DNA of 64,000 nucleotides from contig NZ_CP117180.1 in NCBI RefSeq assembly GCF_033971325.1, positions 254,041-318,040 on the forward strand, in the 5' to 3' direction. Position numbers and translations under genes: made by a program. Shown in pieces: positions 1 through 14,496 of the stretch (the stretch's first letter is position 1; each line of letters opens with the position of its first letter). The notes below the pieces were generated by a model. The model was not told the origin of the DNA, made no database searches, and worked only from the letters and a program-made list of their open reading frames with translations. The DNA comes from Hydrogenobacter sp. T-2. GTDB taxonomy: Bacteria; Aquificota; Aquificia; Aquificales; Aquificaceae.

Positions 1-1243
1 ACTCCTTAATACCATTATAACTTAAAATCACAGATTCCACATCCTCAGGAAAAACGTTTATAGCACCCACTTTATAGAGGAACTTTTTCCTACCTTTGTA
101 ATAAAGAAATCCGTCCTCATCCATATAGCCCAAGTCTCCAGTAAGGAAATAGTCTCCCAGAAAGGCTCTTTTTGTCTCTTGCTCCATATTGAGATAACCG
201 CTAAATATAAGTGGTGTTTTTACCGCTATCTCTCCAACTTCCTTAGGTTTCAATTTGTTTCCTTGATGGTCAATTATAGCTACTTCAACATTTTTCAATG
301 GATAGCCTACGCTTTCAATTTTTGCTCTAAATTCTCGTAAGTTTATATCAGAAACAGTAGAAGTCTCGGATGTTCCATACATTTCATGAAAATCACAGCT
401 TAATAGGTTTAAGATTTCTTCTTTTTCAACTTTGCTTAAACTGGATGAAGAGGATACTAAACACCTGAGACTGCTAAGGTCATATTCTCCTTTCCTTATG
501 TAAGGTAGTATACTTCTTATCTGCGAAGACACCAATATAGAAAGGCTTACCTTTTTAATTGAAACTGTATATAACCAGTCTTGAGGTTCAAACTTGTCAA
601 TTATTACAGCTTTACATCCAGAATAGATTGGAATTAATGAAAGTCTAAATCCAAGCGTATGATACATAGGAGTTGAAACTATTAACACATCTTCATCTTT
701 TACCTTGTAGAGGTCTATAACAGTTTCAAAAGCTCTTTTAATCTTTGTGCTTGTGGATAACACTATGGGCTTAGGTTTGCTCGTTGAGCCCGATGTTGTT
801 GAGATAAGAAAAGGTTCATCGGGACTGCATTTTTGAATGTCCACTTGTTTTAAGTATCCCTCTTTTATAGTTTCTAAGTCAAGGTGTATCAACTCTGTAT
901 CTGTGGAAGTTAACTGAATGCTTAGGTTTGTAAGCAGAAATTTAGGTTTTAATTCTTCAAGTATTTGTAAGATCTGCTCTTTAGATAGTTTAGTATTTAT
1001 TGGTATAGTTCTTAGGCAGAGAACATCAGATGCGAGGACACTTAATATAAACTCAGGCGAGTTATCAAACAAAAGTGCGATGGTATCCTTTGGCTTGATG
1101 CCCTTGCTTAAAAGGATATTAGCTGTCTTTATAGTTAAGTTGTAAATCTCATTAAAAGAAAATGTTTTATTACCAAATTCGTAAGCAACCGCTTTTGAAT
1201 GTTTTTTGTCTAAAAGAAAGTCAAAGATTCTGATTTCTTTCAT
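1..1243 (-). CDS. AMP-dependent acyl-CoA synthetase/ligase, partial (3' end outside window)
   Basis: The ATG is at 1243 and the frame stays open to the window edge, giving about 414 codons; the C-terminal lid domain is mostly missing. Visible ANL-family landmarks are the Ser/Thr/Gly phosphate loop (STTSGSTSKPK, about residues 148-158), the YGTSE adenine motif (289-293) and the LTGD motif (367-370) that contacts ribose. Such enzymes activate a carboxylate as an acyl-AMP and usually pass it to CoA or a carrier protein. It overlaps the upstream glycosidase-like gene by 4 bp (ATGA), so it is the distal member of the glycan operon. I infer that it supplies an acyl group for sugar modification, but a fatty-acid or carrier-loading role is equally possible. 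The substrate cannot be read from sequence. Confidence 0.85.
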   Translation of the reverse strand, partial: MKEIRIFDFLLDKKHSKAVAYEFGNKTFSFNEIYNLTIKTANILLSKGIKPKDTIALLFDNSPEFILSVLASDVLCLRTIPINTKLSKEQILQILEELKPKFLLTNLSIQLTSTDTELIHLDLETIKEGYLKQVDIQKCSPDEPFLISTTSGSTSKPKPIVLSTSTKIKRAFETVIDLYKVKDEDVLIVSTPMYHTLGFRLSLIPIYSGCKAVIIDKFEPQDWLYTVSIKKVSLSILVSSQIRSILPYIRKGEYDLSSLRCLVSSSSSLSKVEKEEILNLLSCDFHEMYGTSETSTVSDINLREFRAKIESVGYPLKNVEVAIIDHQGNKLKPKEVGEIAVKTPLIFSGYLNMEQETKRAFLGDYFLTGDLGYMDEDGFLYYKGRKKFLYKVGAINVFPEDVESVILSYNGIKE

Positions 1244-2310
1244 AACAATATCTCCGCAAAGCCTATACACGCCCTATATTCTTTATCGTAAGGTTTTTCG
1301 TATTCTCCACATCCGTGGCTACCATTACCACCTGAGTAATATATGATTAACCTATCTTGTCCAGAAAGTGGTTGATTTGCTGTGCTCAATGTTCCACTAT
1401 CCCACTCACCCTCCTTTCCAAGTGGTATTATAGGCTCATCTGAAACAAGCTCCCATTTTCTGCAGTCCTTACTGTAGGCTAAATAAACCTCTATTTTCCC
1501 ATCGTGCGTTCCTTTTTTAAACTCATGGTCTATCATAAAAAGCCACAAAAAGCCAAGATAATGGTCTTTGTAGTTAAAGGGACACAAGCCATAAAAGTCT
1601 GCCCAGTTAAAGCCTCTTTCTTGTGCTATTCTGTCTTCCCTTTCAGATGGTATCCATACTGTTTTTGGCTTGCTCCAGTTTATAAAATCCTTACTTATTG
1701 ACATTCCCACACAGCGTCTTGTCCTGCCTTGCTTGTCTATCTTATAGGTTTTTACCATAGCCCTGTAAACCCTTTTCCTTTTATCGTAAAAAACTGGTGC
1801 AACATCGCTATACCATATCTTCTTCGTCTTTTTGTTTGGAAATTTTAGCAGAGGAATTACAGGGTTGTTTTCGTATTCCACGAAATTTATACCATCCTTT
1901 GAAAAGGCAACGCAATAGCCTTTGTCTGTGTAGCCAAAGAGTTTGTATGGATACTCATCCTCTGGATTGTGTATAACAGATGGAATGTGATAGCTTGCTA
2001 CCACGTTGCTCATACATTCAAGATGTTGAGTTTTGTGGTAAAAGTCCAATACCCTGCCTTCTACTTCCACAGTAGGATAAATATGAGGGATGCTTTCCTT
2101 GAGAGGTCTTATGAGAGGTTTCTTCCAGTTTATGCCATCTTCTGACTCCGCAAGGCACACAAAAAAGCCAATCCCATCCACATAACTTTGATAATACATC
2201 CTCAACTTGTCCTGTAGCTCTATAACAGAACCATAAAGGTATGTATGCTTTTCTTCCCAAGGATACTCAGGGCAAAGAACAGGTTTTGGATGCTTTATAG
2301 ATTTAAACAT
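1240..2310 (-). CDS. Five-bladed beta-propeller glycosidase-like protein (GH32/GH43/GH130-type fold)
   Basis: 356 residues without a signal peptide. It carries repeated blade signatures of the type S-x-D-G-x-N-W (SEDGINW, FSKDGINF, SISKDFINW, YSKDCRKW), spaced as in five-bladed propeller glycoside hydrolases and phosphorylases. Cytoplasmic location and its place between nonulosonate genes and an acyl-CoA ligase suggest it acts on an activated or free sugar intermediate, not on a polymer. I cannot assign the catalytic acid and base with certainty, so enzymatic activity is inferred. The start overlaps the end of the upstream coiled-coil gene by 8 bp. Proteins of this shape turn up in polysaccharide and nonulosonate clusters and their roles are mostly undefined. 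Confidence 0.65.
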   Translation of the reverse strand: MFKSIKHPKPVLCPEYPWEEKHTYLYGSVIELQDKLRMYYQSYVDGIGFFVCLAESEDGINWKKPLIRPLKESIPHIYPTVEVEGRVLDFYHKTQHLECMSNVVASYHIPSVIHNPEDEYPYKLFGYTDKGYCVAFSKDGINFVEYENNPVIPLLKFPNKKTKKIWYSDVAPVFYDKRKRVYRAMVKTYKIDKQGRTRRCVGMSISKDFINWSKPKTVWIPSEREDRIAQERGFNWADFYGLCPFNYKDHYLGFLWLFMIDHEFKKGTHDGKIEVYLAYSKDCRKWELVSDEPIIPLGKEGEWDSGTLSTANQPLSGQDRLIIYYSGGNGSHGCGEYEKPYDKEYRACIGFAEILL

Positions 2311-2992: not shown

Positions 2993-5029
2993 TCACATCT
3001 TTCTAAACACAGGCTGTAGTATTTGTCCCTCTATCAATTCATCTACCATATCGTATTCCATTGCAAACTTTACAATATCAAGCACCTCGTCGTATACTTC
3101 AAGAGTTTTTTCAATTATCTTATCATCATGAGGTAGAGCCATGTTATGAGAACCTGTGAAAAGAATTCCTCTTTTTGCACATTCTTGTTGGAAAAGAGTT
3201 TTTAACTTTAGACTGTTGTCTCCTACAAAATCCAGTAAAAACCTAACATCATAGCCCTTTACAAAGGCTATATCCTCCATTTCTTTATCTTCTATTAGCT
3301 TTTGAATGCCTTGTTTTAGCTTTTTTCCTTGCTCCCAAAGGTAGGGTATTACCTTTTTGTCTCTTAGATATTGTATGGTTGCGATGGCGGATGCTATGCT
3401 TGCGGTTTCTCCCCCAAAGGTAAAAGAGAAAAAGACCTCCTCAAAAAGCTCCATAATCTCCGACCTTCCAACTATGGCGGATATAGGTATGCCATTGCCC
3501 ATGGCTTTGCCAAAGCAGGCAAGGTCTGGAACTACTCCAAAATATTCTTGTGCACCTCCCAAGGAAAAGCGAAAGCCACTAACCACCTCATCAAATATCA
3601 ATAAAGCACCACGTTTCTGTGTAAGCTCTCTGACCTTTTGTAAAAAGTCTTCCTTTGGCTCTTCTACGCCCATAGGCTCCATTATTACGCAGGCTATCTG
3701 GTTTTTGTATTCCTCAAAAAGCCTTTCAAGACTTTGTATATTGTTATACTCAAAGGTAAGGGTAAGGCTTTTTACCTCTTCTGGAATTCCCCTATCCCTC
3801 GTGGTTGTCCCTATATACCAATCTTGCCAGCCGTGATATCCACAACAAGCTATGTATTTCCTGCCCGTGTATGCCCTTGCAAGCCTAACGCCCGCAGAGG
3901 TCACGTCAGAACCATTCTTCCCAAAACGCGCCATCTCACAGCATGGTATGGTCTCTCTCAAAAGCTCCGCAAGCTCTGTCTCAAGATAGCTCGGCAAGGT
4001 AAAAACTGTTCCCCTTCTTAGCTCCTTTTCCACTCTTTCAATAACAGGCTCAAAGGCATAGCCTAATATACAAGCACCAAGCCCCATAGTGTAGTCTATA
4101 TAGGTATTCTCGTCAAGGTCTGTAAGATAACAACCTTTTCCTTCTTTCACAAAAAGTGGAACCGCCCCCACAGAAAACTGTAGGTACGATTTGCTAAAGG
4201 TTTGTGAACAGTTAGGTATTAGGGTTTTGGTTTTCTCAAAATGCCTTAGGCTGTTTTCAAGTTTTAAAGGCTTTGCCCTTAGAGACCTTATAAAATCCCT
4301 ATCTTGCCTTAGGGACTTGAGATATCCCTCGTTTACAGGAATTTCTTTCTCCCTTTTCAAGATTTCTGGCTTTTCCTTTATAAGTTTTACCACCTCTTCG
4401 TAGGTAAAGTCTTCCTTTCCAAGAGCTTTTATTATTCTTTCTATAATCACCAAATCCTCTGGATAGTCAAGGCTAAGATGTATGTGCGAGAGGTCTTCTT
4501 CATGTATTCTGTAAAAGAGCTTTTTAGCTTTCTTTGACTTTCTTATGTATGGGCTTACATGCTCTCTTTCTGACGGAAGTTTAGCCCTTTGATAAGCCCT
4601 TAGTATCCATTCTCCCTTTATAACTTCCACATCAAAACCGTCTATTATGCCAGTAAGCACGAGATAGTCTACATTTTCTTCAAGTGCTTTACTAAGAGCC
4701 TTTTGGACAAGTTCAGGGTCTATTAGAGGACAATCTCCAGTTATTCTCACTACTAAGTCAAGGGAAAAATCTTCTACCGCCTTTGCATATCTACTGAGGA
4801 CATCAGTTGGATGCCCTGCTAAAGCATACCAAACAAACCTTTTTGCTATATTTATAAGCTCTTTGTCTTCTTCAAGTATAGAAGTAGCCAAAACTTTAAC
4901 ATCTACTTTTAGCTTGCTTAGTCTTGTAAAAACCCACTCTATTGCCTTTTTACCAACAAGGTCTGCCATCATCTTTTTAGGGAATCTTGTAGAGCCATTC
5001 CTTGCCTGTACCACTAAGCCTGTCCTCAT
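2993..5029 (-). CDS. Fused SpsF-type cytidylyltransferase + class III (GSA-like) aminotransferase
   Basis: 678 residues in two domains. Residues 1 to about 240 match the SpsF/CMP-sugar cytidylyltransferase type: the nucleotide-binding motif QARNGSTRFPKK (8-19) and the acidic RITGDCPLID (95-104). Residues about 265-678 are a fold-type I PLP aminotransferase like glutamate-1-semialdehyde mutase: IFDEV (478-482) and the Schiff-base lysine in FGKAMGNG (Lys508). The predicted job is to make a CMP-activated nonulosonate and to transfer an amino group onto (or isomerise) a sugar intermediate. The linker is short and there is no internal stop, so the fusion is genuine. It overlaps the upstream acetyltransferase gene by 4 bp. 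In Pse pathways CMP activation is done by PseF; this N-terminal domain is the only cytidylyltransferase in the island. Confidence 0.85.
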   Translation of the reverse strand: MRTGLVVQARNGSTRFPKKMMADLVGKKAIEWVFTRLSKLKVDVKVLATSILEEDKELINIAKRFVWYALAGHPTDVLSRYAKAVEDFSLDLVVRITGDCPLIDPELVQKALSKALEENVDYLVLTGIIDGFDVEVIKGEWILRAYQRAKLPSEREHVSPYIRKSKKAKKLFYRIHEEDLSHIHLSLDYPEDLVIIERIIKALGKEDFTYEEVVKLIKEKPEILKREKEIPVNEGYLKSLRQDRDFIRSLRAKPLKLENSLRHFEKTKTLIPNCSQTFSKSYLQFSVGAVPLFVKEGKGCYLTDLDENTYIDYTMGLGACILGYAFEPVIERVEKELRRGTVFTLPSYLETELAELLRETIPCCEMARFGKNGSDVTSAGVRLARAYTGRKYIACCGYHGWQDWYIGTTTRDRGIPEEVKSLTLTFEYNNIQSLERLFEEYKNQIACVIMEPMGVEEPKEDFLQKVRELTQKRGALLIFDEVVSGFRFSLGGAQEYFGVVPDLACFGKAMGNGIPISAIVGRSEIMELFEEVFFSFTFGGETASIASAIATIQYLRDKKVIPYLWEQGKKLKQGIQKLIEDKEMEDIAFVKGYDVRFLLDFVGDNSLKLKTLFQQECAKRGILFTGSHNMALPHDDKIIEKTLEVYDEVLDIVKFAMEYDMVDELIEGQILQPVFRKM

Positions 5030-5526
5030 GTTTTGACCTTTTCCATAATTATTTCATCAACATAATTACCTTTGTAAAACCTCCTTTTGGTAAACCTACC
5101 TACCTCTCTGTAGCCAGCTTTTAAAAATGCTTTGTAGGATGCTATATTGTTTGCGTAAATACCTGCCATTATGTGTTTTAAATTTAGCTCTGTAAAAGCA
5201 TATTCTGTAGCAAGTTCTATGGCTTTTGTTCCATAACCTTTCCCCCAACAACTCTTGTCTCCTATTATTATGCCAATATCTGCATACCTATGAATCCAAT
5301 TTATATTACCTAATTTTACATTTCCTATATGCTTACTATCTTGCAAGAATATTCCAAATAGGAAATTATTTGAGTTATTAACAGACTTTACATAGTTCCG
5401 CAAATCTTCCAGAGTATATGAGCTCCATCTTGACTCTAAATACTGGTTTATATCAGGATCACTCAACCATTCAAGATACTCAGGCGTCACATCATCTGGT
5501 GTTAAGAGTTTTAGTTTTATATTCAT
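5026..5526 (-). CDS. GNAT-family N-acetyltransferase (PseH/RimJ-like)
   Basis: 166 residues of the RimJ/RimL-type GNAT fold. The acetyl-CoA pyrophosphate loop is seen in GKGYGTKAIELA (about residues 94-105) and is followed by the usual alpha-helix and the N-x-x-S-Y-K-A-F-x-K-x-G-Y motif near 125-138. In the pseudaminic acid route PseH acetylates the 4-amino group of the sugar nucleotide made by PseC, and the position of this gene fits that step. The start has a strong Shine-Dalgarno (AAAGGAGAT) and its own -10 element at 5544-5549. It overlaps the downstream fusion gene by 4 bp. It could act on a different amino sugar. Confidence 0.8.
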   Translation of the reverse strand: MNIKLKLLTPDDVTPEYLEWLSDPDINQYLESRWSSYTLEDLRNYVKSVNNSNNFLFGIFLQDSKHIGNVKLGNINWIHRYADIGIIIGDKSCWGKGYGTKAIELATEYAFTELNLKHIMAGIYANNIASYKAFLKAGYREVGRFTKRRFYKGNYVDEIIMEKVKT

Positions 5527-5555: not shown

Positions 5556-5577
5556 CATGACATTATATAATATCATG
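5556..5577. repeat. 22-bp AT-rich near-palindrome between the reductase and acetyltransferase genes
   Basis: The 22 bases beginning CATGACATTA and ending AATATCATG are palindromic except for one symmetric pair, which becomes a G-U wobble in minus-strand RNA. It starts at the stop codon of the reductase and ends upstream of a TATAAT element. It could be an operator or a weak hairpin; no U-tract follows, so it is not a classical terminator. Confidence 0.5.
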
Positions 5578-6442
5578 TAGGCTTTGTCCACATATACGGC
5601 AGGATTATATTTTCATCCTCCACTCGCATACCCCGCCAATCCACCGATAACTCAGGTGCATGTCTTGTGCAGTTAACTATTTCTTCTAATTGCTCTCTAC
5701 TATCCACACCTATGACTATATAGTCCACTGGTTGTTTAATAGCAAAGAGAAGACAAAGGCAGGGAAGTGTAAGCCCTTTCTCTAAGGATAGCTCTCTAAG
5801 TTCTTTTATCTTATCCTTCACTTTTTCAAACGCACCCACAAGTTTATGTTCCTCTATAAAAAATAGCCCTTGTAGAAATATGGACCTTGCAATAATTTTT
5901 ATGCCTTTAGACTTCCATTCATTAATATGAGAGGTAAATCTTTGGTCAAAAATGTTAAGCGGCAATTCCACAGTAAAATATCCTCCTAACGCCTCAATAA
6001 ATTCTAAAAATTCATACGGATGATATACAGAGATGCCAAAATTATCTATCAAGCCTTCTGTTTTTAGTAGTTCAAGTGATTCTATTGTTAGATTTTTATT
6101 TCTTTTAAATGTGTCGAAAGAATGAATAAGAAGATAGTCTATTCTATCTACTCTAAGATTTTCTATGCTTTTAATAGTAGCCATTTTAAAATCTTCATAG
6201 CACTCATATTCCTTATTTGGTAATTTTGTCACTATCCTTAAAGACCTTCCTTTTTTCCAAAAATATTCACCTAATATCTTCTCTGCTGTACCATAAGCTT
6301 GAGCAGTATCTACTCCATAAAAACCTTCCTCCACCGCAAGGTCAAGTATCCTGAAAACCTCCTCTTTAGGAACTTGTCTACCAAAGGCAATGCCGTAATT
6401 CATGCCAAAGTTTGCAGTGCCAAGTATAAGTTTGTTAACCAT
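5573..6442 (-). CDS. Aldo-keto reductase of the nonulosonate island
   Basis: 289 residues with the AKR (beta/alpha)8 barrel signature. The catalytic tetrad can be placed: Asp and Tyr in GVDTAQAYG, Lys in RIVTKLPN and His in YLLIHSFD. NAD(P)H-dependent reduction or oxidation of a sugar carbonyl is the family reaction. AKR-type and other oxidoreductases are frequent accessory genes in legionaminic and pseudaminic acid clusters, where they alter the side chain or C-2/C-3 chemistry; the exact step here is inference. The gene starts 8 bp inside the end of pseC, so the two are translationally coupled. Confidence 0.8.
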   Translation of the reverse strand: MVNKLILGTANFGMNYGIAFGRQVPKEEVFRILDLAVEEGFYGVDTAQAYGTAEKILGEYFWKKGRSLRIVTKLPNKEYECYEDFKMATIKSIENLRVDRIDYLLIHSFDTFKRNKNLTIESLELLKTEGLIDNFGISVYHPYEFLEFIEALGGYFTVELPLNIFDQRFTSHINEWKSKGIKIIARSIFLQGLFFIEEHKLVGAFEKVKDKIKELRELSLEKGLTLPCLCLLFAIKQPVDYIVIGVDSREQLEEIVNCTRHAPELSVDWRGMRVEDENIILPYMWTKPT

Positions 6443-7544
6443 CTATCAAGCTCCTCAACCTTTTCACCACCAACTCAAGCTCCTCTTCCTTTAGTGCAGG
6501 ATACATGGGCAGGCTTATCTCTCTTTGGTAAAAGTCCTCCGCAGTAGGGCAAAGTCCCTTTTTGTATCCAAGTTTTTCCATAAAGGGATGCCAGTAGATG
6601 GGAATGTAGTGAACCTGAACTCCTATGCCTTGTGCCCTGAGGTTTTTGAAAACTTCCCTCCTCCTTTCTTTGTCAGTTAGCTTTATAGGATAGAGATGAT
6701 AGGAATGGTATGCGTATGGCTTTTCTACCAAAAGACTTAGGCTTTCTAAAGCTCCAAGTTTTTCTTTGTATAGCTCCGCTAAATGTCTTCTCCTCTGGAC
6801 AAAGTGGTTGAGTTTTTTTAGCTGTGAAATCCCCAAGGCACACTGAATATCCGTTATTCGGAAGTTAAAGGATGGAAACTCTATAGCATACTCCCAGTCT
6901 TCACCTCTTACCATTCCGTGATTTCTGCACCTTAACATCTTTTCGTAGAGTTCATAACTTTTAGTTAGCACCGCACCCCCTTCTCCTGTGGTTATGTGCT
7001 TTACCGGATGAAAGCTGAAAACCGTAGCGTGCGAATACTTGCAAGAGCCCGTTTTATGACCCTTATAATCAGAACCAAGAGCGTGGCAGGCATCTTCCAC
7101 CACATAAAGCCCGTATTTCTCAGCCACCTGCCAGACCCTTTCCATATCCACAGGATGCCCAGCGTAGTGAACAGACACTATGAGCTTTGTCCTTTCTGTT
7201 ATCAGACTCTCCAATAGGTTTACATCCATGTTTCCCGTATCTGGTTCTATATCACAAAAGACTGGCTTTGCACCAAGCATAACCCCCATAGAGACCGTAG
7301 CAGTAAAGGTTATAGGAGTAGTTATAAACTCATCCCCCTCCTTTAGCCCTAAGGCTTTGTAAATGCAATACAAGGCAGAAGTGCCAGAGTTAAAGGCTAC
7401 CGCATAGTCCACACCGCAATAGCTTGCCAAAGCCCTCTCAAAGGCTTCTATCCTTGGACCCTGCGTGATATAGTCAGACCTCAGAACCTCCACAACCGCC
7501 TCTATGTCCTCTTGGTCTATATACTGCCTACCGTAAGGAATCAT
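6435..7544 (-). CDS. pseC: PseC-type UDP-4-keto-6-deoxy-sugar aminotransferase
   Basis: 369 residues of the DegT/DnrJ/EryC1/StrS family. The GTSAL cofactor-phosphate motif is at 54-58, the EDACHALG motif at 150-157 and the PLP lysine at Lys182 in HPVKHITTGEGG. PseC converts the 4-keto product of PseB to the 4-amino-4,6-dideoxy-altrose sugar nucleotide with glutamate as amino donor. The N-terminus (IPYGRQYIDQEDI) is typical of PseC. It follows the coiled-coil gene with a 4-bp overlap and overlaps the reductase by 8 bp. The specific assignment rests on co-occurrence with pseB and pseI; other sugar aminotransferases of this family look similar. Confidence 0.9.
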   Translation of the reverse strand: MIPYGRQYIDQEDIEAVVEVLRSDYITQGPRIEAFERALASYCGVDYAVAFNSGTSALYCIYKALGLKEGDEFITTPITFTATVSMGVMLGAKPVFCDIEPDTGNMDVNLLESLITERTKLIVSVHYAGHPVDMERVWQVAEKYGLYVVEDACHALGSDYKGHKTGSCKYSHATVFSFHPVKHITTGEGGAVLTKSYELYEKMLRCRNHGMVRGEDWEYAIEFPSFNFRITDIQCALGISQLKKLNHFVQRRRHLAELYKEKLGALESLSLLVEKPYAYHSYHLYPIKLTDKERRREVFKNLRAQGIGVQVHYIPIYWHPFMEKLGYKKGLCPTAEDFYQREISLPMYPALKEEELELVVKRLRSLIDG

Positions 7545-8734
7545 TCTTCAAAGTCATAGCTAAAGTAAATTCTTACACCCTTTTGTTTTGCATATCTTTC
7601 TGTATGTGGTGATGCAACCATGTGGGTTACCATAACAGGTATAACAGGTGCGTTAAGGTATTCTTGCACTCTTTGCAGTTTTCTAAGAAATTCATCTATA
7701 TGTTTTTTGTTAAGTTGAGTTTTTGACTCACCTATTATGAAAACCTCTGAGCCATCTACTTTTGCCTTGCCAAATATGTTAACTTCGTCATAGCTAAACT
7801 CGGAATATTCTATGAAGCCTCTTTTTAGTCTTCCTATAACTTCTATGTTTTCCTCTTTCATAAGTCTTGGCAGGTGTTTGTAAGCCTTGTTTTCCAGTAT
7901 ATACCCTACAGTGTGTGAGAGGCCTCCTAATTGTTCTCTTGTTTTCTTGTGGTCTTCTTGTAGTTTTTTCACAGATTCCGCTAAACTCTCAACTACCTTT
8001 GATAGCTCTGCAACTGTAGCTCTGAGATCCTCTTGATCCTTGGCAAGCTTAGCTACTGTGTTCTTCAGTTCAATCATCTCTTGAGATAGCTGAGCCACAG
8101 TGTTTTTTAGCTCAATCATCTCTTGAGATAGCTGAGCCACGGTATTTTTCAGTTCAATCATCTCTCGAGAGAGCTGAGCGACAGTTTTCTTAAGCTCCTC
8201 TTGGTCTTTTGAAAGCTGAGCTACAGTGTTTTTCAGTTCAATCATCTCTCGAGAGAGCTGAGCGACAGTTTTCTTGAGTTCCTCTTGGTCTTTTGATAGC
8301 TGGGCTACTGTATTCTTTAGCTCAATCATCTCTTGAGATAGCTGGGCTACAGTTTTCTTAAGTTCCTGCTGGTCTCTTATAAGCTCTGCAACAATTTTCT
8401 TAAGTTCCTCTTGGTCTTTTGAAAGCTGGGCTACAGTGTTCTTCAGCTCAATCATTTCTTGAGATAGCTGTGCCACTGTTTTCCTAAGCTCCTCTTGTCC
8501 TTTAGCAAGCTCCGCAACTATTTTTCTTAGCTCCTCTTGATTTTCTGAAAGCCTATGGACAGACTCTGAAAGGGCGTTTAGCTTTTCTGTAAGAGCTTGC
8601 AGATTAGTCCATATCTTTTTACGCTCTTCTGTATCCCACATTTGCATGAGGGCGAGGGCAAACTCCATTATGGAAGCAACCTGCTCTGGCTCAAACTTCC
8701 CTTCAAGTAGACTTTTTAGCTCTCCAAACTGCAT
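7541..8734 (-). CDS. Long tandem-repeat coiled-coil protein with C-terminal PD-(D/E)XK-like domain
   Basis: 397 residues. After a 60-residue helical head come about 14 contiguous 14-residue units (roughly residues 61-256) of two alternating types, QLSxEMIELKNTVA and QLSKDQEELKKTVA, which make two-heptad steps of a left-handed coiled coil. The C-terminal 120 residues carry YDEVNIFG and IIGESKTQ, the D...E-x-K layout of the restriction-endonuclease-like fold, as in the shorter paralogue at 2303-2977. Function is unknown. The gene splits pseB from pseC, has no Shine-Dalgarno but a -10-like element 10 nt before its ATG, and its stop overlaps the start of pseC by 4 bp. Confidence 0.75.
   Translation of the reverse strand: MQFGELKSLLEGKFEPEQVASIMEFALALMQMWDTEERKKIWTNLQALTEKLNALSESVHRLSENQEELRKIVAELAKGQEELRKTVAQLSQEMIELKNTVAQLSKDQEELKKIVAELIRDQQELKKTVAQLSQEMIELKNTVAQLSKDQEELKKTVAQLSREMIELKNTVAQLSKDQEELKKTVAQLSREMIELKNTVAQLSQEMIELKNTVAQLSQEMIELKNTVAKLAKDQEDLRATVAELSKVVESLAESVKKLQEDHKKTREQLGGLSHTVGYILENKAYKHLPRLMKEENIEVIGRLKRGFIEYSEFSYDEVNIFGKAKVDGSEVFIIGESKTQLNKKHIDEFLRKLQRVQEYLNAPVIPVMVTHMVASPHTERYAKQKGVRIYFSYDFEE
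8009..8554 (-). repeat. About 13 tandem 42-bp coding repeats
   Basis: The stretch encoding residues 61-242 of the coiled-coil protein is built from 42-base units, many nearly identical (for example the unit ending in the sense of IELKNTVA occurs six times). Two unit types alternate in the order A B B' A B A B A A A. This is an in-frame minisatellite that can change length by slippage or unequal recombination without breaking the frame. Confidence 0.85.
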
Positions 8735-8758: not shown

Positions 8759-9784
8759 TTACATTTCCACGTCTTTCATAGCCTTCTGTATAAAGACCTT
8801 TAGCTCCTCTCCTTCAAGCCACCAGTCGTTTTTATCGCTTCTGTAGAAAAAGCCTTCTTGCATCTTTGGATAGTCTTTCCAAACCTCCAAAGCCCTTGCT
8901 TCAAAGCTGAACTGAGGAAGGATAACAAAATACTCTTTTTCTTTGTGCTTTACCAGTCTTACATCCCGTGCTTCGTCTTCTGCTATTAGGCTCTCATGGA
9001 GTTTTTCTCCTGGTCTTATGCCTATTATCTTGTAGCTACAGTCTGGGCATAGGGCTTTTGCCAAGTCAACCACTCTAACGCTGGGTATCTTTGGCACAAA
9101 AACCTCACCACCTTCTGACCTTTCAAGGGCAAAAAGCACAAGCTGGACACCTTCTTCAAGAGTTATCCAAAAACGCGTCATCCTTTTGTCTGTTATAGGA
9201 AGCTCCTTACAACCTTCAGAGATTAGCTTGAGGAATAACTGCACAACGCTCCCTCTACTTCCTACCACATTACCATATCTAACTATGGCAAAAGATGTAT
9301 CCTTTGCACCTGCATAGGCGTTGCCTGCAATAAAGAGTTTTTCCATAGTTAGCTTAGTAGCACCGTAGAGGTTAACTGGATTTACCGCCTTGTCGGTAGA
9401 AAGGGCTATTACCTTTTTCACTCCCTTCTCTATAGCGGTCTCAATGATGTTTTGAGCTCCTATGATGTTGGTCTTTACTGCTTCAAAGGGATTGTATTCA
9501 AGGATTGGCACATGCTTGAGGGCTGCAGCATGCACCACATAGTCCACACCGTCAAAGGCAAGCCTTAGCCTGTCTTTATCCCTTATGTCTCCAAGGAAAA
9601 ACCTAAGCTGTGGAAACCTATCCTCTGGAAACTCCTTGCTCATCTGCCACTGCTTGAACTCATCTCTGCTGAGGATTATTACCTTTTTTGGCTTGTAATG
9701 GCTAAGCACATACCTCACAAAGGTTTTTCCAAAAGAACCCGTGCCACCAGTAATAAGTATGGTTTTGTTATCCAAAAAGCTCAT
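8759..9784 (-). CDS. pseB: PseB UDP-N-acetylglucosamine 4,6-dehydratase (inverting)
   Basis: 341 residues from the ATG at 9784. That start is preferred over an ATG 15 bases further upstream because it forms ATGA with the pseI stop and has GGGAG at the right distance. The extended SDR signatures are present: GGTGSFG for NADP (13-19), STDKA (129-133) and the catalytic Tyr140/Lys144 in YGATK. PseB removes the C4/C6 water and inverts C5 of UDP-GlcNAc, the first committed step to pseudaminic acid; the similar WbpM/FlaA1 dehydratases are longer membrane proteins. The C-terminal extension after residue 250 (RPGEKLHESL) is characteristic of this group. Confidence 0.93.
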   Translation of the reverse strand: MSFLDNKTILITGGTGSFGKTFVRYVLSHYKPKKVIILSRDEFKQWQMSKEFPEDRFPQLRFFLGDIRDKDRLRLAFDGVDYVVHAAALKHVPILEYNPFEAVKTNIIGAQNIIETAIEKGVKKVIALSTDKAVNPVNLYGATKLTMEKLFIAGNAYAGAKDTSFAIVRYGNVVGSRGSVVQLFLKLISEGCKELPITDKRMTRFWITLEEGVQLVLFALERSEGGEVFVPKIPSVRVVDLAKALCPDCSYKIIGIRPGEKLHESLIAEDEARDVRLVKHKEKEYFVILPQFSFEARALEVWKDYPKMQEGFFYRSDKNDWWLEGEELKVFIQKAMKDVEM

Positions 9785-10824
9785 TCTACAAGCTCCCAAG
9801 AAAGTGGAGTTCCAGCCTTTATGTCAAACCTTGCCCTTCTACCAAGGATATCCCTTAAATACTTGGGATGCAAACCCACTGCCGGTCTTACGCTTCTTAC
9901 AATTTCCTCTGTAAATACCTCGCCTTCTTTTATGTCCTTGGCAACAAAAAGACTTCTTGAAAACTTTCTCATGGCTTTTTGCCTTTCTGTTAGCTCGTAG
10001 CTCACTTTTCCAAGTGCCTTTTCCACCTGTCTTATGGCAGAGACCATAGCCTTGAACTCCTCTGGTTCAAGAGAAAAGGCACTGTCTGGTCCTCCAAGAT
10101 TTCTGTCAAGTATAAAATGCTTTTCCACCATAACCGCACCCAAAGCCACAGAGGCAATAGGCACTGCTATACCAAGGGTGTGGTCAGAAAGACCCACTAA
10201 CACTCCAAAGGTTTCTCTCATGTTGGGTATTGTCCTTAGGTTGGCATCCTCATAGGGTGTAGGATACTCAGAAACACACTTTAGAAGTATTATCTGCTCA
10301 TTTCCTACCCTTTTGCAGGCCTTTATGGCTTCTTCTATGTCAGAAAGGGTGGCAATGCCCGTGGAGATTATAACTGGCTTTCCCTTACTGGCTATATACT
10401 CTATTAGAGGAATGTCCACTATTTCAAAGGATGCAACCTTATAAGCTGGTGTTCCAAGCCCTTCCAAAAAGTCAACCGCAGTTTTGTCAAAGGGAGAAGA
10501 AAAACACACAAGCCCAAGCTCTCTGGCAAAGTTAAAAAGCTTCTCGTGCCACTCCCAAGGTGTGTAGGCTTTTTTATAAAGGTCATACAGATACTGACCA
10601 TCCCAAAGCGTGCCCTCTCTTATCATAAAGTGTTCGTTTTTTACATTTAAGGTTATAGTGTCTGGTGTGTAGGTTTGGAGCTTTACCGCATCCGCGCCAG
10701 ATTCTTTTATTGCCTCTATGGTTTTCAGTGCAAGGTCAAGGTCTTGCAAATGGTTAGCGGAAAGCTCAGCCACCACAAAGACAGGCTCACCCTCTCCTAT
10801 CCTTCTCCCACCTATTTCTATCAT
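9781..10824 (-). CDS. pseI: PseI/NeuB-type nonulosonate synthase
   Basis: 347 residues: an N-terminal NeuB TIM barrel (about 1-280) and a C-terminal SAF/antifreeze-like domain (about 285-347, KFSRSLFVAKDIKEGEVF). The family condenses phosphoenolpyruvate with a six-carbon amino sugar to give the nine-carbon acid using a metal ion. VVAELSANH near residue 16, KLQTYTPDT and STGIAT are recognisable barrel motifs, and they resemble PseI more than NeuB or LegI. The start ATG overlaps the Maf stop by 4 bp, and pseB follows with another 4-bp overlap, so the three form one translationally coupled unit. Confidence 0.92.
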   Translation of the reverse strand: MIEIGGRRIGEGEPVFVVAELSANHLQDLDLALKTIEAIKESGADAVKLQTYTPDTITLNVKNEHFMIREGTLWDGQYLYDLYKKAYTPWEWHEKLFNFARELGLVCFSSPFDKTAVDFLEGLGTPAYKVASFEIVDIPLIEYIASKGKPVIISTGIATLSDIEEAIKACKRVGNEQIILLKCVSEYPTPYEDANLRTIPNMRETFGVLVGLSDHTLGIAVPIASVALGAVMVEKHFILDRNLGGPDSAFSLEPEEFKAMVSAIRQVEKALGKVSYELTERQKAMRKFSRSLFVAKDIKEGEVFTEEIVRSVRPAVGLHPKYLRDILGRRARFDIKAGTPLSWELVE

Positions 10825-12752
10825 CCAAAGTCCTCCAAAAGCTCTCTTATCTCCTTAACAGCATCCTTAAGAAAGTTATGGTATAAACCATAAAACTCCC
10901 TTAGGAATTCCTTCCTTTCCTCATCTTCCAAACTCAAAGCATGCCCGAGGGCTATCTGACTCCAACGATGGGTATTGTGGTAGAGGAGGTTATACAGGAG
11001 AGGGTTTTTAAAGGAGACGAGCTTTCTAACCAAGTCTTGAAAACTGTAGACAGCGTGGTTTAGCTTTGAAAAGTCATAGTTCTTTGGATAATCCCGTATG
11101 TATTCAGAAAGGGTTTCAAAGTCTGTCTGTAGTCTTTTGAGGACTTCTGGGACGTTTACCATGTTTATATATCTTGTATCAAAGTTTTCTTCTATGGATG
11201 CTATGACTTCTTCCTTGTTTGCGGAGTTTTCCAGTCTAAAGAACTCTATGGGTAAAGGTATGGCACCTTCTATTTTTGCACCGTCAGAGGTGTTGCAGAC
11301 CTTTATACCCTTCTTTTTTATGGTCTGCTCTATGCCGTATTTGGTATTTAGAAACCATAAATGGGTCTTTACCTCACCTCCAAAGTTTCCCGGCACGGTA
11401 ATGTCAAAGTCTATTTTTGACCTATAGAGCGAGCTTTTAGGGTTGTAATAGTTTGTTAGTTTTGAGTGATGACTCTCCACATTTTTTGAGCCAAGGTCTA
11501 CACCAAAGAGGTATACCTCCTCAAAGCCAAACTCTCCTGCAAGGGCAACGCCTGCTGCGGTCACAGTGGGTCCCGTGTGCCATATGATGGGTGAGCCAGT
11601 AGGTTCTAAAAGAAGTGCACCAGTGTCGTTTAGCTTTAGAAACATGTATCCTCTCTTGAAGAGCTTAAAACAATCTGTCCATAGAGGGTTGTTGGCTATA
11701 AGCCTTGTCTGCTTGAGATAGTTTCTGTCAAGCTCTATAAGTGTGTCGTAAGTATACTTTGTCCTTTCTATCTCCACATGAAAGTCTGGCACTATGCCTG
11801 CCCTTTGCAGTGCGGATATAGCTGTTCCGCAGGAGAATATGACCGCCTTGTCCTTATATTCCTTTATCTTATCTATGGCGTAGTCCAAAGAGGGACCTGC
11901 ACCCACCACAAAGGCGACCGAACCCTTTGGCACTTTTTTCTTAGGATAATAGAGTGGTATCTTCTTCTTAAACTTTTCAAGGGTCCACCTCAAAGACCAA
12001 AGCTCATCGTCAAAGTATCCATGAAAAAGCTCCTGAAAGGCAGGAGAAGAAGAAAACCACTCTATAAGCCTCATGGGTGGGTTATATTCAAGATGCTGGA
12101 AGTAATAGCCCCAGTAGAAAACCCCTGGGTTTAGCTGTTGAGCAGTCCTCAAAAGCTCTTCAAAAGCTATATTAAGGTCTTGCTCCAATATGAGCTTATC
12201 ATGGACTATGAAGTTTAGGCTTCTGCCCGGCTTTGAGTAATACTCAAAGAGCTTTTCCCAGTCAAGGTAATAAAGGCTTAGCCTAAAAAAGGCAGGCACA
12301 TCAAGTATTATGAGGTTCTGTATTTCATACTTTTGGAGCAAAAGCTCAAGATGTATGCCAAAGCCAAGACCCACCATAAGGAGAAGCGGTATATGCCTTG
12401 TATCTCTGATGGGCTTGGGTTCTACCTTGTTGCCTATAAGACTTTGTATCTTGTAATCATACCTATGAGCTATAACATCCGTTTGAGTGGAAACCTCTAA
12501 AAGGTTGATATCTGGAAACAGCCTCATAGGTTTTTCCTCAAAAGCCTGTACTTGAGATAGGCTGAGCTGGTAGGCATCGCCCTTATATATGCCACCACCC
12601 CCAAAATCCGCATCCAGCTTTCCATCCTTGACTATCACACTAAAATTGGGAGGTAGGCTTGATATGAGCTGGAGTATACCCGGTGCTTTTTTGCGGAGAA
12701 ATTCGTGGTTTTTGTATACCCTCTCTTTAAGAAACTCCTCTTTTATTTCCAT
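10821..12752 (-). CDS. maf: Motility accessory factor (Maf) family glycosyltransferase, DUF115/MptE-like
   Basis: 643 residues. The central domain has the DUF115 features: VAFVVGAGPSLDYAID near residue 280, VEIERTKYTYDTL and LFGVDLGSKNVESHHS. Maf proteins are thought to transfer CMP-activated nonulosonates to Ser/Thr of flagellin in the cytoplasm before export. The next gene upstream, in the opposite direction, is flagellin, which supports that role. It is first in the island and has no Shine-Dalgarno; TTGTCA-N18-TAAAAT ends 11 nt before the ATG. Acceptor sites on flagellin cannot be read from sequence. Confidence 0.9.
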   Translation of the reverse strand: MEIKEEFLKERVYKNHEFLRKKAPGILQLISSLPPNFSVIVKDGKLDADFGGGGIYKGDAYQLSLSQVQAFEEKPMRLFPDINLLEVSTQTDVIAHRYDYKIQSLIGNKVEPKPIRDTRHIPLLLMVGLGFGIHLELLLQKYEIQNLIILDVPAFFRLSLYYLDWEKLFEYYSKPGRSLNFIVHDKLILEQDLNIAFEELLRTAQQLNPGVFYWGYYFQHLEYNPPMRLIEWFSSSPAFQELFHGYFDDELWSLRWTLEKFKKKIPLYYPKKKVPKGSVAFVVGAGPSLDYAIDKIKEYKDKAVIFSCGTAISALQRAGIVPDFHVEIERTKYTYDTLIELDRNYLKQTRLIANNPLWTDCFKLFKRGYMFLKLNDTGALLLEPTGSPIIWHTGPTVTAAGVALAGEFGFEEVYLFGVDLGSKNVESHHSKLTNYYNPKSSLYRSKIDFDITVPGNFGGEVKTHLWFLNTKYGIEQTIKKKGIKVCNTSDGAKIEGAIPLPIEFFRLENSANKEEVIASIEENFDTRYINMVNVPEVLKRLQTDFETLSEYIRDYPKNYDFSKLNHAVYSFQDLVRKLVSFKNPLLYNLLYHNTHRWSQIALGHALSLEDEERKEFLREFYGLYHNFLKDAVKEIRELLEDFG

Positions 12753-12891: not shown

Positions 12892-14496
12892 ATGGCACTA
12901 AGAGTGAACTTCAACTTTGAAGCGGCGGCGACACACACTGCCATCCTCTCCAATGAGAGGGATATGAACAAATCTTTGCTTAGGCTCTCAACGGGTCTGA
13001 GGATACTTAATGCTGCAGACGACTCTGCAGGTCTCTTTATTGCAGACCAGCTCATGGTGGTTGGGTCTGGCTTAGAAGAGGGCAACAGGAACATCCAAAC
13101 TGGTCTTTCTGCCCTTAGGATTGCGGAAAGCTCCGCAGGTCAGATATTCAATAGGCTAAACGAAATATATAAAAGGACGATCCGCGCAGCAAACGACATA
13201 AACGACCCCAACGCAAGGGCGAGCCTTCAGAGAGAGATAGACAATTTCATTGACGCTATTAAGAAGATAGGCACAGATACAGAATATAACGGTATAAAAC
13301 TTCTTGATGGAACCTTTGCGGGCAAGGCAATCCACTACGGAGCAAGAAAAGACCAGATACTAGAAGTGGACATAAAGAGCGTTCTCCCTAACGACATAGG
13401 TGCCTACATGGTAAAGGCACAGGGTGCAAGGTTTACATCAGGAAATACTGCAGTAAGCGCAGGAACCTTTGCTGCACATCTTAGCACCACATCCTACTGG
13501 CTTGTAGATTCGGGAGATTATGTAGATATAGCTGGCATAAGAGTGTTGTCTTATGACGGAACCCAAAGATTTGTGGACGCTGCAACTCTTGCTAAAAACA
13601 TAAACAGTGATAAGGACCTTCAGGCTCTTGGTATTGAGGCTGTAGCAAAGAACACAAACCACGCGAGCGCTACATATACTGGTTTTGCTAACTTTGCTAG
13701 CATTGTTAATGATACTACTGGGACAGCAACTCTTAGCTCTGTTACACTTGACTTTTATATCGGTAACGCCAACGCAGGCGGTCCTGCAAGCTTCTCTATC
13801 ACTATAAACAGCAGTATAACCAGTTTGCAACAGCTCGCGGATGCTATAAACACAGCAGCTTCTGGAGCGGGTTCTCCTATAAGTGCAAAGGTTGTGGATG
13901 GCAGACTTTTCCTTGAAACTAACAATGGAGAAACTATAGCGGTGAGGACGAGCATAACTGCTACCTTGGCTGGTAATGCTACTGTCGACGTAAGGCTCGG
14001 ACAGATATTAGAGGGGGCTGGCACGGTTAACTTTACAACAGCATCTAACTATTCTTACTACATAGACGTAGGCACAGTGGACATAGCAGGTATAGACACC
14101 TATAAACTTGAATACAGTGGTGTTTCTGCTTCTAACCAAGGCTTTAACTTCAATGTAGCCAACGGTTCTGACGCTACCGCCAAAAACCTATATGCGGTGA
14201 GCGTGCTTACCAACGAAAGGGCAGAAGAATCCATGCTCATAGTCAAGAAAGCCCTCCAACGCGTTGATACTGTGAGAGCCCAGATAGGTGCGGTTATGAA
14301 CAACCTCCAGTCCATATACGACTCTCAGAGGGTAGCCCTCGACAACACAAGAGAAGCTGAGAACGTCATACGCAACACAGACTACGCAGAAGAGATGACC
14401 AACTTTACCAAGCTCCAGATTAAGATGCAGGCTTCTATGGCAATGCTGGCACAGGCAAACCAGCTACCTCAATTGGTGCTTCAGCTCCTCAGATAA
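12892..14496 (+). CDS. fliC: Flagellin (filament subunit)
   Basis: 534 residues. The conserved N-terminal D0/D1 (about 1-170) has the LRLSTGLRILNAADDSAG and IQTGLSALRIAESSAGQIF helices; the C-terminal D1/D0 (about 430-534) has VRAQIGAVMNNLQS and ends in QANQLPQLVLQLLR. The middle 260 residues are Ser/Thr/Ala-rich and variable, typical of the surface-exposed part, and offer many possible O-glycosylation sites for the adjacent Maf/Pse system. There is no signal peptide, as expected for type III export. It is preceded by a sigma-28 promoter and followed by a strong terminator, so it is mainly a monocistron. Length is near the usual 500. Confidence 0.95.
   Translation: MALRVNFNFEAAATHTAILSNERDMNKSLLRLSTGLRILNAADDSAGLFIADQLMVVGSGLEEGNRNIQTGLSALRIAESSAGQIFNRLNEIYKRTIRAANDINDPNARASLQREIDNFIDAIKKIGTDTEYNGIKLLDGTFAGKAIHYGARKDQILEVDIKSVLPNDIGAYMVKAQGARFTSGNTAVSAGTFAAHLSTTSYWLVDSGDYVDIAGIRVLSYDGTQRFVDAATLAKNINSDKDLQALGIEAVAKNTNHASATYTGFANFASIVNDTTGTATLSSVTLDFYIGNANAGGPASFSITINSSITSLQQLADAINTAASGAGSPISAKVVDGRLFLETNNGETIAVRTSITATLAGNATVDVRLGQILEGAGTVNFTTASNYSYYIDVGTVDIAGIDTYKLEYSGVSASNQGFNFNVANGSDATAKNLYAVSVLTNERAEESMLIVKKALQRVDTVRAQIGAVMNNLQSIYDSQRVALDNTREAENVIRNTDYAEEMTNFTKLQIKMQASMAMLAQANQLPQLVLQLLR

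Follow-up and report, generated by a model that had tools for sequence, protein, structure and literature searches.

A CMP-sugar synthetase fused to a class III aminotransferase in Hydrogenobacter sp. T-2, a probable enzyme of 8-amino pseudaminic acid synthesis

The stretch of 64,000 nucleotides of Hydrogenobacter sp. T-2 that was analysed (the window) encodes a protein of 678 amino acids (aa) in which a CMP-sugar synthetase is joined to a class III aminotransferase. This fusion probably performs the last two cytoplasmic steps in the synthesis of a variant of pseudaminic acid (Pse), namely the amination of carbon 8 followed by activation with CMP. With somewhat less confidence, we lean towards a broader reading, in which the aminotransferase family provides the transaminase for 8-amino nonulosonic acids. 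A ketone-making reductase would then be combined either with an SDR, yielding the 8-epimer, or with an aminotransferase, yielding the 8-amine, fusions of each with the CMP synthetase having arisen repeatedly, and the window would specify a triamino Pse on the flagellin of a thermophilic Aquificales bacterium. 8-Amino nonulosonic acids have been described in structural studies, and the literature searched yielded no paper that assigns their biosynthesis; if the reading is right, the fusion supplies the missing biosynthetic step. It also offers a gene-to-bond hypothesis (an aldo/keto reductase, AKR, plus a class III aminotransferase at C8) and a simple rule (an SDR partner for the 8-epimer, an aminotransferase partner for the 8-amine), and it would provide a genomic marker by which flagellins, O-antigens and capsules with triamino nonulosonic acids could be predicted in many phyla.

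The fused protein and its two halves

The open reading frame of the fusion starts with ATG and contains 678 amino acid codons and no internal stop (Table 1). Pfam assigned residues 6-192 to CTP_transf_3 (PF02348; E 1.9e-21, 77.3 bits with a cut-off of 22.6) and residues 288-629 to Aminotran_3 (PF00202; E 2.3e-47, 162 bits with a cut-off of 30.5). The original prediction held that both halves are catalytically intact, and the alignments agree, as no loss of catalytic residues was found in either. The ARNGSTRFP motif claimed for the CMP half is present at residues 9-17, and the putative nucleotide- and metal-binding residues Arg10, Arg15, Lys19, Asp99, Asp188 and Asp192 are invariant in 82 of 82 aligned relatives; Lys508 indeed lies within FGKAMGNG in the aminotransferase half, where it is invariant in 89 of 89 aligned relatives, together with the pyridine-N aspartate Asp480 and with Tyr398, His399, Asn512 and Thr537. 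An AlphaFold2 model built from 21 fused sequences contained two folded domains (pLDDT 91.9, pTM 0.87), with a weaker stretch at residues 221-240 (pLDDT 77 and 67). The fusion was recovered in nine of the 61 genomes of the order, and in a tenth (G052) the two enzymes are encoded by adjoining genes. A chance or assembly fusion could be ruled out on the basis of the eight further genomes of the order that carry a fused frame of the same length (70-92% identity); because of this recurrence and a model that is confident throughout, the fusion is not considered an artefact.

Table 1. Features of the fusion and its operon in the window
Feature	Position	Strand	Basis or remark
Bifunctional CMP-nonulosonate synthetase / class III aminotransferase (predicted), 678 aa	2993..5029	-	ORF, Pfam, relatives, AlphaFold2 model
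N-terminal SpsF-type CTP_transf_3 domain, residues 1-245	4295..5029	-	motifs QARNGSTRFPKK, RITGDCPLID, EREHV, LSLDYPED
Inter-domain segment, residues about 225-255	4265..4357	-	lowest model confidence between domains
C-terminal class III aminotransferase domain, residues 250-678	2996..4282	-	Pfam, tree, fold matches
Codon of Lys508, predicted PLP Schiff-base lysine	3506..3508	-	aligns with GSAM lysine; 89/89
GNAT N-acetyltransferase	5026..5526	-	overlaps fusion start by 4 bases; 55 bits, PseH cut-off 93.1
Aldo/keto reductase (AKR), predicted C8 oxidase of Pse	5573..6442	-	tetrad Asp45, Tyr50, Lys73, His107 conserved
PseC, UDP-4-amino sugar transaminase (first amination)	6435..7544	-	TIGR03588, 488.6 bits, cut-off 423.5
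PseB, UDP-GlcNAc 4,6-dehydratase (inverting)	8759..9799	-	TIGR03589, 495.4 bits, above cut-off
PseI, pseudaminic acid synthase	9781..10824	-	TIGR03586, 532.3 bits, above cut-off
Maf-type flagellin glycosyltransferase	10821..12752	-	PF20157 and PF01973
Flagellin, likely acceptor, divergent from operon	12892..14496	+	sequence; homologues at same place in relatives
GH32/43-like protein	1240..2310	-	conserved beside fusion in Aquificales

In a profile search with the N half, the top solved relative was the uncharacterised cytidylyltransferase 6OEW (E 1e-63), followed by KdsB and NeuA enzymes. The isolated CMP domain gave no match to PseF (TIGR03584, cut-off 205.7 bits) up to an E-value of 0.001; it can nevertheless take over the function of PseF, for which orthology is not needed. 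The other CTP_transf_3 matches of the genome are a strong one in a 262-aa, KdsB-like protein and a weak one in a 464-aa frame with the size of GlmU, both identities being putative. The fusion thus appears to be the sole CTP_transf_3 protein of the genome that is neither KdsB- nor GlmU-like, and hence the only PseF candidate. Given family, context and this position as sole candidate, the N half is predicted to be a CMP-Pse synthetase of the SpsF type.

The label 'GSA-type' that was attached to the aminotransferase half holds for fold and superfamily, the best PDB matches of the model being GSA aminomutases and other class III aminotransferases, but it does not extend to an identity with HemL (glutamate-1-semialdehyde aminomutase, GSAM), with which the half shares fold and PLP chemistry. 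The domain scored 282.2 bits, far below the cut-off of 527.3 for TIGR00713, the GSAM substrate motif SPVR is missing and replaced by QTFSK, HemL falls outside the aminotransferase clade with a support of 100, and a separate HemL is encoded elsewhere in the genome (C1:817250). The cut-off of PRK06209 (NF004856, 486 bits) was not reached by the fusion either (429.8 bits).

The operon and the proposed pathway

From the flagellin gene outward, the minus-strand operon reads Maf, PseI, PseB, a coiled-coil protein, PseC, AKR, GNAT, the fusion, a second coiled-coil protein and a GH32-like protein, and several of these genes, GNAT and the fusion among them, overlap by 4-19 bases. The predicted presence of PseC in this island was confirmed by its score (Table 1). 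PseG is found 8 kb outside the window (G000:C1:245495-246274, above the NCBI cut-off) and a true PseH lies near it, likewise outside the window (180.6 bits with a cut-off of 93.1). PseB, C, H, G and I all score above their equivalog cut-offs, and make up a complete Pse set in the genome. The idea that the fusion stands in for an absent PseG or PseH was rejected, as the genome encodes both of them at 6-9 kb from the window. If the N half is a CMP-Pse synthetase, all classical steps towards CMP-Pse are covered, which leaves the aminotransferase, the AKR and the GNAT as surplus. The score of this GNAT, which lies below the PseH cut-off, suggests that it is probably an additional N-acyltransferase that acts on the extra amine. 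With a surplus aminotransferase beside a complete Pse set, a new amino sugar, as was originally suggested, is the likely outcome, and most probably this is 8-amino Pse.

In the pathway that we propose, PseB, PseC, PseH, PseG and PseI would, by family membership, produce 5,7-diacylamino Pse, of which the C8 hydroxyl would be oxidised to a ketone (8-keto-Pse) by the neighbouring AKR. The C-terminal PLP domain would transaminate this ketone to 8-amino-8-deoxy-Pse, a 5,7,8-triamino-3,5,7,8,9-pentadeoxy sugar, and the N-terminal domain, considering its family and its standing as sole PseF candidate, would use CTP to form the CMP-sugar. The overlapping GNAT may then acetylate the new amine (in relatives a methyltransferase may methylate it) and Maf, judging from the neighbourhood, may move the sugar onto flagellin. 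We thus infer the order AKR, aminotransferase, CMP transfer; substrate channelling between the two halves would be made possible by such a fusion of consecutive steps. In Aquificales loci a GNAT or a SAM methyltransferase gene usually precedes the fusion directly, which is what one would expect if some organisms acetylate the new amine and others methylate it. The fact that aldo/keto reductases usually reduce counts against the AKR as C8 oxidase, and the hydroxyl that is also present at C4 of Pse counts against a fixed C8 assignment.

Some other features of the locus can be mentioned. The coiled-coil protein between pseC and pseB has 397 aa and 42-base tandem repeats (7541-8734); a shorter related gene is located at 2303-2977, and PseG also has a similar neighbour. 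The GH32/43-like protein has weak Pfam support and its gene adjoins the fusion in most Aquificales loci, but it is also found in two loci that lack the aminotransferase (L045, L046). In the sister genome, PseH is fused to a formyltransferase-like domain. In the present genome (L035:12675-13782, G000:C1 about 247174-248281) the frame changes at 9 consecutive G, where the sister has 7, which makes this a candidate phase-variable or frameshifted tract.

Fused and split relatives and their gene context

A comparison of fused and split homologs and of their neighbours had been suggested along with the original prediction. In a scan of 85,000 species genomes, the best 80 loci with relatives of the aminotransferase included 20 in which the two enzymes are fused and 25 in which the two genes are adjacent, and their phyla include Nitrospirota, Acidobacteriota, Chloroflexota, Planctomycetota, Bacillota, Pseudomonadota and Bacteroidota. 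The architecture is thus not new, rare or unique, but widespread across many phyla; a characterised example was not encountered in the literature searched. A maximum-likelihood tree of 94 aminotransferase domains and 7 HemL sequences requires eight changes between the fused and the split state, at least five of which are forced by well-supported branches; that the same two enzymes were fused repeatedly is good evidence that both act in sequence. Within the tree, two types of aminotransferase (A and B) form separate clades with a shared gene context. In Aquificales the two types are swapped within the same context (L044 and L036), and this speaks for a common role, perhaps combined with a different stereochemistry. 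We regard the fusion as a variant of nonulosonic-acid tailoring and not as a separate category. Other arrangements encountered include a triple fusion of Gfo/Idh/MocA, CMP transferase and aminotransferase of 1028 aa (L058:8951-12034), a PseC-AKR fusion of 733 aa (L059:6959-9157) and a NeuB-CMP fusion of 607 aa (L176:4993-6813). On a plasmid of the haloarchaeal Halorussus aquaticus (L049), a CMP transferase gene is adjacent to that of a type A aminotransferase, with Gfo/Idh/MocA, NeuB, DegT, SDR and GNAT.

As controls, we used 41 PseI-anchored loci of at least 12 kb, which were picked regardless of the aminotransferase from the classes of a Janthinobacterium and an Anoxybacillus genome. An SpsF-type CMP enzyme was present in 33 of them, 30 of which lacked the aminotransferase, and therefore the CMP half alone would be the usual Pse activator there. 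The aminotransferase was found in only three of the 41, in all cases with SpsF and AKR. PseC was present in 30 of the 32 aminotransferase-anchored loci that have PseB and PseI; the fused enzyme is therefore no replacement for PseC, and the earlier claim of two different aminations is upheld. Furthermore, an AKR was present in 23 of these 32 loci against 4 of 38 controls (Fisher 1.2e-7, a descriptive value, as the loci are not phylogenetically independent). In five AKR-less loci (L056, L058, L064, L074, L090) a Gfo/Idh/MocA oxidoreductase was located nearby, and a ketone-making enzyme is therefore usual beside the aminotransferase. It counts against the proposed pathway that no AKR was found near the fusion in L037, nor in three other loci (L041-L043). 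Two GNATs were found in 11 of 36 loci against 2 of 38 controls, which is weakly positive (Fisher 0.005, but Mann-Whitney 0.26). Published surveys are in agreement with this. In Vibrio, a Pse cluster contains an SpsF-AKR fusion (PMC7371886), and in Legionella pneumophila serogroup 6/12 the genes GNAT-PseG-aminotransferase-cytidylyltransferase are accompanied by DegT and by one that is AKR-like (PMC3694923).

A second context, lacking PseB and PseC, was observed in Bacteroidota and Ignavibacteriota (L065, L075, L091-L093, L097-L104, L106, L112, L114, L115, L117, L119-L122, L126, L129, L130, L132 and plasmid L051). It comprises a CMP transferase, a split transketolase (N half; pyr/C half), a type B aminotransferase, an EpaB-like SDR, a HAD phosphatase and a short NeuB. 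These genes resemble a ulosonic-acid pathway of a kind not yet described, with the transketolase as a possible source of the ketone.

The site of amination and alternative explanations

Apart from the anomeric one, the free secondary hydroxyls of Pse are those at C4 and C8. Neither is present until the pathway has left the UDP-sugar stage, in keeping with tailoring close to the CMP activation step. A guide to the choice between them comes from Acinetobacter baumannii prophages, in which the CTP_transf_3-AKR fusion protein EpaA and the SDR EpaB convert Pse to 8-epi-Pse according to NMR of the capsule (PMC12053666). EpaA shares the CMP Pfam domain with the N half of the fusion and the AKR family with the neighbouring AKR, and in both systems the CMP transferase is fused to a tailoring enzyme, that of EpaA acting at C8 of Pse. 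The differences are that the C-terminal domain of EpaA is an AKR and not an aminotransferase, its partner an SDR and its product an epimer and not an amine; in the window the second domain of the fusion is PF00202 and the AKR is a separate gene. An EpaA/EpaB-like pair (545 and 263 aa) is present in Pse locus L136, where the AKR half is 31% identical to the AKR of the window; the catalytic tetrad is conserved in the family. Among Pse loci with an AKR, the EpaB-like SDR was found in 0 of 33 with the aminotransferase against 3 of 4 that lack it (only four loci are aminotransferase-negative, and shared phylogeny makes the loci non-independent), so that the two exclude each other in this set. This is most simply explained by a single 8-keto intermediate that is either reduced to the epimer or transaminated to the amine. 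A Priestia plasmid carries SpsF-AKR-SDR-PseG-PseH-PseI. EpaA-like CMP-AKR fusions also occur on plasmids of Marinovum algicola (L189, pMaD10) and Maritalea (H49), the former near a pseudaminic acid synthase and a dehydrogenase that is 48% identical to the SDR of L136. A search of a phage collection for EpaA homologs returned nothing useful.

The O-antigen of Flexibacter (now Tenacibaculum) maritimus contains 8-amino-5,7-diacylamino-3,5,7,8,9-pentadeoxynonulosonic acid (PMC3210612). It was predicted beforehand that T. maritimum carries the module, and one such species could be checked. Genome G923 was identified as T. maritimum by exact 16S matches to the MAR1, MAR2 and Bader-Shotts Mar1 and Mar2 primers (for species-specific 16S primers see PMC9853564). 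It encodes, contiguously and on one strand, PseB-PseC-AKR-CMP transferase-aminotransferase-GNAT-GNAT-PseI, with a type A aminotransferase, the genome and the O-antigen structure being matched by species only and not by strain or serotype; an EpaB-like SDR was not found in the locus. Since the aminotransferase occurs in only 3 of the 41 sampled Pse loci, its presence here, in the one species checked and as type A, is unlikely to be luck. The order PseB-PseC-AKR-CMP transferase-aminotransferase-PseI resembles that of the window; the differences are that the CMP transferase and aminotransferase genes are split (one base apart), that the aminotransferase is of type A, and that the sugar belongs to an O-antigen and not to flagellin. 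The G923 aminotransferase is 60% identical to the fused SMR1 domain but only 32% to the type B domain of the window, and as the two fall in separate clades, the site or the stereochemistry may differ.

One alternative is that the aminotransferase and the AKR act on the nonulosonic acid, or on its free hexose precursor, at another carbon (C4, or some other one prior to ring closure), so that the triamino sugar would be a different one. C4 and C8 are both secondary hydroxyls of Pse by established chemistry, type A and type B domains differ, and the context without PseB and PseC pairs type B aminotransferases with the split transketolase, SDR, HAD phosphatase and NeuB, so that this subfamily is not tied to Pse. 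We nevertheless regard this alternative as unlikely, as the site of action of EpaA/EpaB, in which the same CMP and AKR families occur, is C8 (PMC12053666) and the one producer with a known structure has its amine at C8 and carries the module. Lower still is the probability that the aminotransferase builds a small amino-containing block (e.g. an acyl substituent for N5 or N7) or works as an aminomutase, the sugar itself not being aminated: the enzyme is fused or adjacent to a sugar-activating enzyme, it tracks with ketone-making sugar enzymes and the GSAM substrate motif has been replaced. What speaks for such a role is that GSA aminomutases are the solved structures closest to it in fold, and that Pse derivatives with unusual acyl groups are known.

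Two further explanations concern the halves separately. The CMP half could activate a sugar that is not a nonulosonate, such as Kdo, and be part of the Pse locus by position alone. Its best NCBI model scores are indeed with KdsB models, yet far below cut-off, the genome has a separate KdsB-like protein, the SpsF-type domain accompanies PseI in most PseI-anchored loci (33/41) and spsF of B. subtilis is part of the legionaminic acid pathway (PMC7439481), all of which makes this option very improbable. Least credible is a role of the aminotransferase half as a redundant or alternative PseC, with only a single amination, considering that PseC is retained in nearly all aminotransferase-bearing Pse loci (30/32) and that of the window scores above cut-off. 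Fusion locus L040, on a 12-kb contig, has no PseC nearby, which would be in line with such a role, and PseC-like chemistry is PLP-dependent as well.

Amination of Pse at C8 followed by CMP transfer, the reading that we prefer, has parallels elsewhere. KdnA and KdnB of Shewanella make 8-amino-Kdo, the terminal carbon of the ulosonic acid being oxidised and then transaminated before CMP activation. Oxidation and transamination thus precede the CMP step as in our proposal, although the enzymes belong to other families and the carbon is a primary one of Kdo. A precedent for the joining of an aminotransferase to the cytidylyltransferase of the next step is the PntC-AEP transaminase fusion Tde1415 of Treponema denticola (PMC6697681); it differs in that it belongs to a phosphonate pathway and combines an unrelated nucleotidyltransferase (PF12804) with another class of aminotransferase. 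A similar architecture and context are seen in WP_089422657.1 of Pseudosulfitobacter pseudonitzschiae (pSMR1-1), a fused CMP transferase-aminotransferase in a cluster that reads pseB-pseC-AKR-GNAT-(444-aa protein)-fusion-pseG-pseI; its aminotransferase half is of type A, and overall it is 34% identical to the fusion of the window.
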